Assembly: GCF_007859945.1 (NCBI RefSeq)
Contig: NZ_SJPQ01000005.1
Location: forward strand, 1 to 64,000
Length of the DNA stretch: 64,000 nucleotides
Reading direction: 5' to 3'
Source: Pseudobythopirellula maris
GTDB lineage: Bacteria > Planctomycetota > Planctomycetia > Pirellulales > Lacipirellulaceae
Shown piece after piece: positions 54,212-57,893 of this stretch; position 1 is the stretch's first letter; every line of letters begins with the position of its first letter. Made by a program: the position numbers and the translations under genes. Below the pieces are notes generated by a model. That model searched no databases. It was not told where the DNA came from and worked only from the letters and a program-made list of their open reading frames with translations.

Positions 54212-55738
54212 ATGCCCAAAAACGCCATTTCCCCCACCCGCTCCGAAAACTACCCGGAGTGGTACCAGCAGGTCGTCAAGGCGGCCGACCTGGCCGAGAA
54301 CTCCGACGTCCGCGGCTGCATGGTCATCAAGCCGTGGGGCTACGCCATCTGGGAGAACATCCAGCGGCGGCTCGACGCGATGTTCAAGGCCACGGGGCAC
54401 GAGAACGCTTACTTCCCTTTGTTCATCCCGATGAGCTTCCTGGAAAAGGAGGCCGAGCACGTCGAGGGGTTCGCCAAGGAGTGCGCCGTGGTGACGCACC
54501 ACCGGCTCGAGCCGGACGGCGAGGGGGGCCTCAGGCCCGCGCCTAGCGCCAAGCTCGACGAGCCGCTCATCGTGCGGCCCACGAGCGAGACGATCATCGG
54601 CGCCACGTTCGCCCGCTGGGTGCAGAGCTACCGCGACCTGCCGATCCTGATCAACCAGTGGGCCAACGTCGTGCGGTGGGAGCTGCGCACGCGGATGTTC
54701 CTCCGCACCGCCGAGTTCCTCTGGCAGGAGGGCCACACCGTGCACGCCACGAGCGAGGAGGCCGAGCAGGAGACGCGCATGATGCTCGACGTGTACGCCA
54801 CCTTTGCCGAAGAGGCGATGGCGATGCCGGTCATCAAGGGCGAGAAGACCGCCGGCGAGCGGTTCCCCGGCGCCGTGGCGACCTACTCGATCGAAGCGCT
54901 CATGCAGGACAACAAGGCGCTGCAGGCCGGCACGAGCCACAACCTCGGCCAGAACTTCTCCAAGGCCCAAGAGATCAAGTTCCAGAGCCAGGCGGGCGAG
55001 CTGGAGTTCGCCTGGACCACGAGCTGGGGCGTTTCGACCCGGCTGGTCGGCGGGCTGATCATGACCCACTCGGACGACGACGGCCTCGTGCTGCCGCCGC
55101 GCCTTGCGCCGGCTCATGCGGTGATCTTGCCGATCTACAAGAACGACGCCGAGCGCGACATCGTCTTGCCTTACGCCCAGTCGCTCAAGGCCGAGCTCGA
55201 GGCGCAGCAGTACGACGGCGAGCCGGTCCGCATCCGCATCGACGACCGCGACCTGCGCGGCGGCGAGAAGAAGTGGCAGTGGGTCAAACGCGGCGTGCCG
55301 CTGCGGCTGGAGGTTGGCCCGCGCGACGTGGCGGGCGAGGGCGTTTTCGTCTCCCGTCGCGACACGAACGCCAAAGGGCAGGGGACCCCGCGGGCCGAGC
55401 TGGTGGCGACGATCGCCGACACGCTCGTCGAGATCCAGCAGGGATTGTTCGACCGCGCCCTGGCCGCCCGCCAGGAGGCCACGGTCGAGATCGACTCGCT
55501 CGAGAAGTTCGAGAAGTTCTTCGCCGAGGGCAAGCCGGGCGGCTTGGTCTGGGCGCCGTTCGTCGACGGGCCCGAGATGGAGGCCAAGCTCAAGGAGCTG
55601 AAGGTGACGGCCCGCTGCGTGCCGCTCGACGAGCAAAGCGGTGGCACGCCCGGCCTGCCCACCGGCTCGGGGAGCGGCAAGTGCCTGTTCACCGGCGCGG
55701 CGACCGACAAACGGGCCGTCTTCGCTCGGGCGTACTGA
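54212..55738 (+). CDS. proS: Prolyl-tRNA synthetase, archaeal/eukaryotic type (ProS type 3)
   Basis: 508 aa. Class II aminoacyl-tRNA synthetase that charges tRNA-Pro. The layout is the ~480-510-aa type without the INS editing domain, as in archaea, eukaryotes and some bacteria: IWENIQRRLDAMFKATGHENAYFPLFIP (motif 1), RPTSETIIGATFARWVQSYRDLPILINQWANVVRWELRTRMFLRTAEFLWQEGHT (motif 2), and TSWGVSTRLVGGLIMTHSDDDGLVLPPRLAP (motif 3). The C-terminal anticodon-binding domain and zinc-like C-terminal domain (CVPLDEQSGG..., KCLFTGA) follow. tRNA-Pro(CGG) at 5121 is a substrate. Confidence 0.95.
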   Translation: MPKNAISPTRSENYPEWYQQVVKAADLAENSDVRGCMVIKPWGYAIWENIQRRLDAMFKATGHENAYFPLFIPMSFLEKEAEHVEGFAKECAVVTHHRLEPDGEGGLRPAPSAKLDEPLIVRPTSETIIGATFARWVQSYRDLPILINQWANVVRWELRTRMFLRTAEFLWQEGHTVHATSEEAEQETRMMLDVYATFAEEAMAMPVIKGEKTAGERFPGAVATYSIEALMQDNKALQAGTSHNLGQNFSKAQEIKFQSQAGELEFAWTTSWGVSTRLVGGLIMTHSDDDGLVLPPRLAPAHAVILPIYKNDAERDIVLPYAQSLKAELEAQQYDGEPVRIRIDDRDLRGGEKKWQWVKRGVPLRLEVGPRDVAGEGVFVSRRDTNAKGQGTPRAELVATIADTLVEIQQGLFDRALAARQEATVEIDSLEKFEKFFAEGKPGGLVWAPFVDGPEMEAKLKELKVTARCVPLDEQSGGTPGLPTGSGSGKCLFTGAATDKRAVFARAY

Positions 55739-55760
55739 CGCCCTCTTCGGCGTGGTTCGC

Positions 55761-55799
55761 CGACGCCATTTGTCGACGCCATTTGTCGACGCCATTTGC
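55761..55799. repeat. 13-bp tandem repeat CGACGCCATTTGT, three copies
   Basis: Two exact copies and a third ending GCG are contiguous at 55761-55799, directly after proS. A related 15-bp pair (GCGGGCTGAAATCTG / GCGGGTCGAAATCTG) is at 55956-55985. Confidence 0.85.
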
Positions 55800-55805
55800 G
55801 GTCGC

Positions 55806-55945
55806 CTGTAGGGACCGCCCTCTGTGGCGGTCCGAACCCCGGCGGGCGAGCGTGTCCCCCCCTTTGCTCCGGGTGTGAGAGCAGCGAAAGCCCTTGGTTC
55901 GCGTGTACCCGGGGCTGGAACGCCACAGAGGGCGTTCCCTACAGA
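55806..55945. repeat. REP/BIME-like hairpin pair with compensatory changes
   Basis: Left arm 55806-55833 and right arm 55918-55945 are inverted copies matching at 26 of 28 bases. Each is a hairpin: GGACCGCC-CTCTGT-GGCGGTCC on the left, GGAACGCC-ACAGAG-GGCGTTCC on the right. The only differences between arms fall at two paired positions and keep both hairpins paired, i.e. compensatory. It stands between proS and the transposase-derived ORF. Confidence 0.85.
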
Positions 55946-56011
55946 TTGGAATCCAGCGGGCTGAAATCTGGCGGGTCGAAATCTGGCGGAAAAACAGCAG
56001 CCGCGGGCCGC

Positions 56012-56040
56012 TTGACACCGATAGTGTACGGGTGTATACA
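56012..56040 (+). promoter_or_regulatory. Consensus sigma70-type promoter with internal motif
   Basis: TTGACA (56012-56017), 17-bp spacer, TATACA (56035-56040). The spacer includes GATAGTGTAC (56020-56029), whose reverse complement occurs at 31768-31777. It is the best promoter match in the window and stands 46 bp before the ATG at 56087. Confidence 0.65.
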
Positions 56041-56086
56041 TTCGGTCGTCTTGCCCGTTTTCTCCTTTGCCCGAGGAGCCCCGCCG

Positions 56087-56560
56087 ATGCCCGGTTGCCT
56101 GTTCACGTTCTACGCCCATTCCCAGCGGGAAGAGGGCTTTTCGCCCGACCACCAGCGGCGGCTGATCGACGCCGCCTACGACGCGCAGAGCCGGGGCCGC
56201 CTGGCGTTGTGTGCGGCGGCGGCCACCCGGGACCAGCTCGAGTTGCTGGTGCTGTGGGCCGACGACCGTCCCCAAGGCCGGGTGGGCGATCACCTGCAGG
56301 GCGTGTTGGAGCGCGGCATGCGGAGCGAGTTTAGTCCCGACTTGTCGGCCTCCTGGAGCCGCAGCGGTTGGCTCGACGGCCGCCGCTGCGACCGCCGGCT
56401 GAGGAATCGCACCCACTACGATTGGCTCGTCGGCCGCCTGGCGGGCGAACGCGACGGCTGTTCCTGGAGCCGCGAAAACTCGTGGACCCGTGAAAAAGGG
56501 TTCCTGACACCCGACTCCAAGCGTCTGGGGGGCTTGGGGCGTCGTCCGACGGCCGCATGA
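56087..56560 (+). CDS. Possible degenerate REP-associated tyrosine transposase (RAYT/Y1-Tnp-like)
   Basis: 157 aa from ATG 56087. The layout resembles the IS200/RAYT fold: helix (HQRRLIDAAYDAQSRGRLAL), a strand where HVHLLV is expected (here LELLVLW, so both catalytic His are lost), a helix VGDHLQGVLERGMRSEF, then WSRSGWLDGRRCDRRLRNRTHYDWLVGRL in place of FWQ-x-x-xYDRLVR...ERIRRYI. The catalytic Tyr is not identifiable. So it cannot be an active HUH transposase; it may be a domesticated DNA-binding derivative. Support is contextual: it follows a hairpin doublet (55806-55945) and has a full promoter. My family assignment is by visual alignment and moderate at best. Confidence 0.45.
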   Translation: MPGCLFTFYAHSQREEGFSPDHQRRLIDAAYDAQSRGRLALCAAAATRDQLELLVLWADDRPQGRVGDHLQGVLERGMRSEFSPDLSASWSRSGWLDGRRCDRRLRNRTHYDWLVGRLAGERDGCSWSRENSWTREKGFLTPDSKRLGGLGRRPTAA

Positions 56561-56717
56561 GATCGTCCCCCCTAGGGGCGTAAGCCTCTGCCGGCCTACG
56601 ACGCCCAGTCGACCCATGTGCCAACCCAACAGACGCTCCGGCATATCGGCCGTTGGGGCTTGGAGGTATTCCCCGCCGCTGGTTTGACCAGGACGGGCCG
56701 TGTTCTAAAATCGGGGG

Positions 56718-57893
56718 ATGAAAGTCTTCCCCCTGTTTATCGTCTCGGCACTGGCCGGGGTTGTTGCTGGCGCCGCGCTGGGATATTCCCGCGCCGCTCC
56801 GCAGGCCCACGAAGCGGCCGACTCGTCGGCGCACGTCTCTTCATCGAGCCCGGCGGCGGCAAGCCTGCCGCCCGACGAGACCCCGCGCGTCGAGGTCGAC
56901 CAGGCGAACTACAACTTCGGCAAGATGCAGCGCGGCTCGACCGAATCGCACGAGTTCGTGTTCACCAACAGCGGCACGGCGCCGCTGTACCTGGAGGTCG
57001 GCCGCACGAGTTGCAAGTGCACGCTGGGCAACGTATCGAACGAGCCGCTCGCGCCGGGCGACTCGACCCCGGTGCGGCTCGAGTGGACCGCCCTGACCCA
57101 AGGGGGCGATTTCCGCCAGACCGCCGCGGTGCGCACGAACGACCCCAAACGCCCGCGCGTCGATCTGGCGGTGGAGGGATCGGTGATCGAAACGGTCGGC
57201 CTCACGCCGCGCGATTTCATGCTCAACACCCTCGCGGCGGGCGAGGAGAAGTCGGCCTCGGTGCGGTTCGTGTCGTTCGAAGAGGACGAGTTCGAACTCA
57301 CGGCCACGATGGCCCCCACCTCGCGCAACCCCGATCGGTTCGAGCTCGATGTCGTTGCGCTCGGCGACGACGAGCTCTCCGACGAGGGCGCCAAATCCGG
57401 CTACCGCATCGACCTGCGCGCGCTCGAGGGCCTGCCGCTCGGCAGGATCAACGACCTGGTCGAGCTCAAGACCTCGCTCCCGACGAAACCGAATCTGTTC
57501 GTGCCCGTGATGGGCGTGGTCGAGGGCGACATCTCGGTCCACGGCCGCGGCTGGGTCGAGTCGCTCGGCGTGCTGCGTCTCGGGGCCGTCGAGAGCGACG
57601 AGGGCGCCACCGCCAAACTGCTGCTGAGCGTTAAAGGCGTCTTTTCCGACGAGACCGAGTTCACCCTGCTCGAAGTCGATCCCGAGGATGGCTTGCGGAT
57701 CGAGTTGGGCGAGCCCTCCTCGCCCCGCGACGGGGTGCGGCACGTGCCGCTCACCATCACGCTGCCGCCGGGGCTGCCGATCATGATCCGCAACGACACG
57801 GCGCAGGGCCAAGGCATCGGCTTGATCCGTCTCGGCACTACCCATCCCAAGGTGCCGACGATCGACATCGGCTTGCAGTTCAGCGTTTACTGA
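56718..57893 (+). CDS. DUF1573 domain envelope protein
   Basis: 391 aa. N-terminal membrane anchor or signal (FPLFIVSALAGVVAGAALGY) followed by a Ser/Ala/Pro-rich linker. DUF1573 at about 55-165: VEVDQANYNFGKMQRGSTESHEFVFTNSGTAPLYLEVGRTSCKCTLG, the typical 'NFG-x-x-x-xG-x-x-x-x-x-F-x-F-x-N-G' and the CKC motif, an immunoglobulin-like fold. Two more Ig-like beta sections follow (to 391). Such domains are common in planctomycete surface proteins. The cytochrome gene begins 157 bp downstream on the same strand, so a shared envelope or redox role is possible. Confidence 0.82.
   Translation: MKVFPLFIVSALAGVVAGAALGYSRAAPQAHEAADSSAHVSSSSPAAASLPPDETPRVEVDQANYNFGKMQRGSTESHEFVFTNSGTAPLYLEVGRTSCKCTLGNVSNEPLAPGDSTPVRLEWTALTQGGDFRQTAAVRTNDPKRPRVDLAVEGSVIETVGLTPRDFMLNTLAAGEEKSASVRFVSFEEDEFELTATMAPTSRNPDRFELDVVALGDDELSDEGAKSGYRIDLRALEGLPLGRINDLVELKTSLPTKPNLFVPVMGVVEGDISVHGRGWVESLGVLRLGAVESDEGATAKLLLSVKGVFSDETEFTLLEVDPEDGLRIELGEPSSPRDGVRHVPLTITLPPGLPIMIRNDTAQGQGIGLIRLGTTHPKVPTIDIGLQFSVY

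Follow-up and report, generated by a model that had tools for sequence, protein, structure and literature searches.

A predicted catalytically dead RAYT-like gene beside a GTAG REP doublet in a planctomycete genome

The window, a 64,000-nucleotide stretch of the 5.07-Mb genome of the planctomycete Pseudobythopirellula maris (G000), contains a pair of hairpins next to a 157-aa ORF that resembles a RAYT transposase. Does the ORF product work on the neighbouring hairpins, and is such a gene maintained or decaying? The gene order is proS, the hairpin pair, the 157-aa ORF, and a DUF1573-like gene. The two outer genes mark the slot in which the ORF lies.

A GTAG REP doublet downstream of proS

The features of the slot and of the hairpin pair are as follows.
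54212-55738, + strand: proS, upstream neighbour marking the slot; 70-81% identity in relatives
55806-55833, + strand: GTAG-tagged REP arm 1, CC/GG variant, with stem GGACCGCC/GGCGGTCC and loop CTCTGT (sequence; fold z -4.1)
55917-55944, - strand: GTAG-tagged REP arm 2, AC/GT variant, the commonest form in the genome (sequence; fold z -5.5)
55806-55944, no strand: whole inverted REP doublet, or REPIN (comparison of 21 pairs)
56718-57893, + strand: downstream neighbour gene, DUF1573-like by eye; the other slot border

Both arms read 5'->3' as CTGTAGGGA[C/A]CGCCCTCTGTGGCG[G/T]TCC, and each forms a hairpin on its own (stem of 8 bp, loop of 6 nt; z = -4.1 and -5.5; equalled by 0 of 200 shuffles). 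The only differences between the arms are at two positions that form a pair within each hairpin, as the sequence-only reading had described. Its coordinates for arm 1 on the + strand also hold, but arm 2 lies on the - strand and one base to the left of where it had been placed. The hairpins had further been taken for REP-like; the genome contains not one but 110 copies of the unit (53 on the + strand and 57 on the - strand; none for a reversed control pattern). In 100 copies that were listed, the variable pair was A-T in 64, C-G in 24, and T-A in 6, that is, Watson-Crick in 94, which none of 10,000 shuffles reached. Stem pairing is maintained across the copies by compensatory change.

The majority of the copies were arranged as inverted doublets. 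The 21 doublets that were inspected spanned 86-174 bp and had ~20 bp of common inner sequence beyond each hairpin; the window doublet has the same inner ends, plus ~50 bp extra in the middle of the unit. Doublets with a common inner sequence identify the window hairpin pair as a REPIN-type unit. It resembles the published GTAG REPs and REPINs in its GTAG foot, short palindromic stem, inverted doublets, compensatory variants, and high copy number, and differs from them in that neither the window genome nor the 80 loci sampled from other planctomycetes yielded a linked RAYT (PMC3733652, PMC3116915). The published class includes Planctomycetes among its hosts (PMC3733652), and the hairpin pair, taken alone, is an ordinary member of it.

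The GTAG REP was present in 15 of the 43 family genomes, and it was widespread in planctomycete genomes (L094-L173, from Pirellulales, a Gemmataceae MAG, and Planctomicrobium) without a linked transposase. One exact copy outside the planctomycetes was found on a contig of Candidatus Thiosymbion oneisti (L146), a gammaproteobacterium by name, and is due to either transfer or contamination. A 13-bp tandem repeat (CGACGCCATTTGT) occupies positions 55747-55798, immediately 3' of proS.

The 157-aa ORF and its family

The ORF and the sites of its losses are located as follows.
56073-56078, + strand: GAGGAG, likely ribosome-binding site (sequence)
56087-56560, + strand: 157-aa ORF, predicted catalytically dead RAYT/IS200-like derivative (family profile match, alignments)
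56120-56138, + strand: site of an in-frame loss of ~38 N-terminal residues (family ...GSWMPDRxQGYV...YR...; alignments)
56234-56242, + strand: former HUH site, His-x-His replaced by Gln-Leu-Glu, residues 50-52 (alignment)
56438-56440, + strand: former conserved Tyr (family YLPKH) replaced by Leu, residue 118 (alignment)

Direct searches of the ORF against Pfam, NCBIfam, and PHROG returned no match, nor was one obtained against Y1_Tnp (PF01797), for which the curated cut-off was not reached. In a PDB profile search, the IS608 and ISDra2 transposases appeared at E 0.35 over the HUH region and ranked below plant complex I chains, which is no evidence by itself. A single-sequence AlphaFold model of the ORF had a pLDDT of 37, too low for use. 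A scan of the genome contigs for close relatives of the protein found none.

The resemblance to a RAYT was recovered through a planctomycete family. Searches of relatives yielded family proteins 24-30% identical to the ORF with the pattern MPCYLFTYHAYGSWMPDRPQGYV...HAVATESTHVHVLISW...SRKRVRDRxHFDYLMxxYLPKHxGWKW, and the intact members have an HxH and, ~60 residues later, a conserved Tyr, named catalytic from its position. The intact members are bordered on one or both sides by TAGCC-footed palindromes (REPs). Their match to Y1_Tnp was weak (five of 11 members at E<0.01, the strongest at 6.8e-5; in another search, a top score of 22.8 bits against a cut-off of 23), and the link to Y1_Tnp thus exists for intact relatives with HUH, Tyr, and flanking REPs and not for the ORF itself. 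With these features, the family is RAYT-like by anatomy. The ORF, in the proS slot, matched the family profile at E 1e-32 (7.5e-31 in another search; residues 47-160) and keeps the family start motif MPxxLFTF and the family promoter. Judged by its sequence, the ORF is a diverged member of this planctomycete IS200-like/RAYT family.

The HUH histidines are lost from the ORF (replaced by Gln and Glu), as had been noted, and so is the conserved Tyr (replaced by Leu). Relative to the family, the ORF has also gained 8 residues by insertion and 22 at its C-terminus. With both HUH histidines, the Tyr, and the greater part of one N-terminal segment gone, the ORF product would not cut DNA in the known way and is predicted to be catalytically dead. 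The profile places it in the same fold family as RAYT/TnpA-REP (IS200/IS605 superfamily, Y1 HUH transposases); the intact relatives resemble that group in their HUH, the Tyr ~60 residues on, and the flanking REPs, whereas the window ORF lacks both His, the Tyr, the N-terminal segment, and an adjacent cognate REP. The Class 3 TnpA-Y1 of Planctomycetes are likewise planctomycete Y1 proteins with flanking atypical hairpins, but they have NHVH, a YV..EQ motif, and a CnGA foot, whereas the family of the ORF has (S/T)HxH, YLPKH, and a TAGCC foot (PMC6006769).

Five relatives (G021, G027, G028, G059, and G011) have a family member in this slot, flanked by proS and the DUF1573-like gene; it is intact in four of them and stop-bearing in G027; in most relatives, the slot holds no RAYT. 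An extra gene (DUF4416-like by eye) inside the slot of relatives is missing from the window. In their own genomes, the slot genes have dispersed REPs of the form TAGCCGGACCGCCACGCGGTCCGG or a variant of it. Where the slot RAYT is intact, the cognate TAGCC-GGANNGCC REPs numbered 87, 37, 22, 17, 8, and 3 copies, a list that takes in G034, whose related gene (L041) sits outside the slot. These REPs are absent from the window genome (1 match vs 2 in the control) and from G004 and G005, and no TAGCC REP was found within 350 bp of the window ORF.

A candidate SOS box and other dead family members

Two overlapping elements were identified upstream of the ORF.
56012-56040, + strand: sigma-70-like promoter TTGACA-17-TATACA (same layout upstream of several family members)
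56023-56040, + strand: dyad AGTGTAC-GGGT-GTATACA, candidate SOS (LexA) box overlapping the -10 (2 mismatches to AGTGWACNNNNGTWCACT)

The promoter, earlier called the best in the window, scores 10/12 and shares this top score with a site at 56684; it is unique in having a perfect -35. A strong promoter was considered as a mark of domestication and dropped, because intact relatives have the same promoter.

In many RAYT genes of planctomycetes, the -10 is overlapped by a dyad with the consensus AGTGwAC-N4-GTwCACT. With at most 2 mismatches and within 130 bp of the start, AGTGWACNNNNGTWCACT was found upstream of 11 of 38 family genes, whereas three permuted versions of it gave 0, 1, and 0. Loci bearing the dyad include the window (56023-56040), L034, L055, L078, L083, L284, and L274. 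In the genomes of the family, the dyad was also found upstream of genes assigned by Pfam to RecQ-looking DEAD-box helicases, an impB/mucB/samB-type (Y-family) polymerase, and class II ribonucleotide reductases, and upstream of proteins that resemble ImuA and ImmA/IrrE by eye and had no Pfam match. Some sites precede genes without a repair link (L255 and L262), and the genome-wide counts exceeded the reversed control only modestly. The dyad core, GAAC-N4-GTTC, is similar to the Gram-positive LexA box. Planctomycete LexA does not use the E. coli motif (PMC3108266). The positions before recQ, Y-family polymerase, and class II ribonucleotide reductase genes make a local SOS box probable, and we regard the dyad as a candidate planctomycete SOS box that would control RAYTs. 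A recombinase-type gene behind a LexA-type operator, here a candidate one, is also seen in the SOS-controlled integron integrases, from which the present case differs in that the candidate operator precedes RAYTs, dead ones included (PMC3108266).

Among the full-length family members with readable motifs, 33 have HxH/Y and five intact-frame members do not. These are the window ORF (QxE/L) and four further members without catalytic residues from two other genera (GxH/I in G019, SxH/L in G006, HxQ/K in G004, and HxH/T in G017). The dead and intact groups, which were set after looking at the data, differed in TAGCC REPs within 350 bp (0/5 vs 29/33; Fisher p 0.0003), a contrast perhaps understated because the REP test was a simple script that misses some hairpins of intact members. 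They also differed in the dyad at 3 mismatches or fewer (5/5, with 1-3 mismatches, vs 8/33; Fisher p 0.003). When the dead members were counted as three lineages, the p values were 0.005 for the REPs and 0.02 for the dyad.

The dead members of G004 and G017 (L281, G004:C5:1122169; L280, G017:C1:2406293-2407446) are syntenic, with flanking ORFs 81-86% identical, and their proteins are 75% identical. With a dN of 0.17, a saturated dS, and differences of 31/19/96 by codon position, this Tyr-less protein is clearly under strong purifying selection. The purifying signal was weaker for G006/G019 (58/56/88), and no flanking gene was seen to be shared by this pair. Dead relatives with the same promoter in four other planctomycetes suggest that dead transposases are kept for another job. 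The G006 (L267/L274) and G019 (L284) proteins, from one genus, lack HUH and Tyr, are 47% identical, and have the dyad at one mismatch each. The dead gene of G017 lies directly upstream of a stop-broken normal member.

Retention, decay, and the neighbouring REPs

Of the residues conserved in the family, the ORF has kept 15 of 21 hydrophobic or structural ones and 5 of 19 polar ones, the classes being assigned after the alignment was seen, and a bias of this size toward loss at polar sites was reached in 0.25-2% of neutral-decay runs. In these simulations, started from four relatives, decay to the observed loss took ~100-120 substitutions with 1.7-3.2 expected stops; a stop was gained in 81-96% of the runs, and the frame remained open in 4-19%, frameshifts not counted in. 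Several frameshifts would also be expected (an estimate, not simulated), and the ORF has none; all of its indels are multiples of three. The GC content by codon position is 0.68/0.57/0.85, compared with 0.64-0.65 in the flanking intergenic DNA, and the third-position value is at the level of host genes. The stop-free frame, the polar-biased losses, and the third-position GC favour a period of selection after the loss of catalysis, and the ORF may now be decaying.

No ortholog above ~30% identity was found among the 43 family genomes and 396 sampled genomes of the order, and the branch of the ORF is very long (3.7-4.8 changes per column). A first tree grouped the ORF with the same-slot RAYTs (99/99), and a fuller tree, with a second dead relative added, placed it next to the dead pair of G006/G019 (82/81). 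The slot grouping was not rejected in the fuller analysis (AU p 0.43), so that neither placement is rejected.

The reading that we prefer, at about even probability, is that the hairpin pair and the ORF are unrelated neighbours and that the ORF belongs to a set of dead RAYTs that have arisen repeatedly and been kept as damage-inducible proteins. The hairpin pair would be a REPIN of the dispersed GTAG REP family, placed, as were the ~50 other clusters, by some past RAYT activity. The ORF would be a RAYT derivative without the HUH pair, without the Tyr, and with little left of one N-terminal segment; hydrophobic core residues, the open frame, the RBS, and an SOS-type promoter persist. Its product, made upon damage, may bind nucleic acids or act as a regulator; it could, for example, be a non-cutting subunit that attaches to hairpin ssDNA or a poison of active RAYTs. 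We infer the use of the dyad by LexA, the translation and selection of the ORF, and the binding target of its product. The description of the window ORF as catalytically dead and possibly domesticated is plausible, given four more dead members that lack cognate REPs and have the box, including one syntenic pair under purifying selection. Several points count against retention. The absence of an ortholog is one, and the very long branch, the 22 residues past the C-terminus of the HUH family, and the high second-position GC are as expected of relaxed constraint. Others are the broken family copies in the same genome (a frameshift at C3:510k and stops at C1:248k) and the two mismatches of the dyad.

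A somewhat lesser but considerable probability goes to the ORF being a RAYT pseudogene whose frame has yet to break, in a system that died with the loss of its cognate TAGCC REPs, the promoter and frame being leftovers. Half of the conserved residues are gone on the long branch, the TAGCC REPs are missing here and many where the slot RAYT is intact, further family copies in the window genome are disrupted, and the slot is without a RAYT in most relatives. Against this, ~110 neutral substitutions would have been needed without any of the expected stops and frameshifts, the third-position GC is at the host level, and the losses are clustered at catalytic and polar sites.

That a dead RAYT binds the neighbouring GTAG REPs, as the sequence-only reading had proposed, is improbable. 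Among all loci seen, no Y1-family gene other than the window ORF lies within ~1.2 kb of a GTAG REP, and the arm 1 stem GGACCGC is also found in the REPs of intact slot relatives, but foot and loop are unlike (TGTAG-GGA..CTCTGT vs TAGCC-GGA..CAC), and it is TAGCC-footed REPs that flank the intact relatives. Genomes with an intact relative in the same slot have few or no GTAG REPs, whereas these are abundant in genomes without the slot gene. None of the other family loci carries a GTAG REP; across 80 loci around GTAG REPs in other planctomycete genomes, the nearest Y1 gene was at 1267 bp, and in five GTAG-REP-rich genomes, no Y1 match was adjacent to a listed GTAG REP. With roughly 50-60 clusters in all, it is no surprise that one adjoins such a gene, and the REP pair is most likely a bystander beside the ORF. 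A chance frame in GC-rich DNA, to which the failed direct searches and a frame open far upstream by chance might point, is already refuted by the family profile match, start motif, family promoter, and shared slot.

The point of interest is the recurrent loss of catalysis together with the loss of REPs and the retention of an SOS-type promoter. We tentatively suggest that Planctomycetes repeatedly turn SOS-controlled RAYTs into non-cutting, REP-independent DNA-damage-response proteins under selection, with the window ORF as the most diverged example. This bears on what host benefit keeps RAYTs over millions of years: if such derivatives are under selection, the protein would have a value beyond the movement of REPs, and its time of use would be indicated by an SOS-type operator. 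Such dead sequences have been removed from surveys as non-functional, as in the Class 3 survey, which left out those without HUH/Y (PMC6006769).

A second REP family, TAGCCGACGA..TCGTCGG, was observed in the window genome, with 93 matches at 3 mismatches or fewer, some of them counted on both strands, vs 4 in the control. REPs of this family flank a frameshifted, HUH-bearing family member at G000:C3:509820-510301 (L086 and L286), and a stop-bearing fragment of another member lies at G000:C1:248315-248578 (L282).
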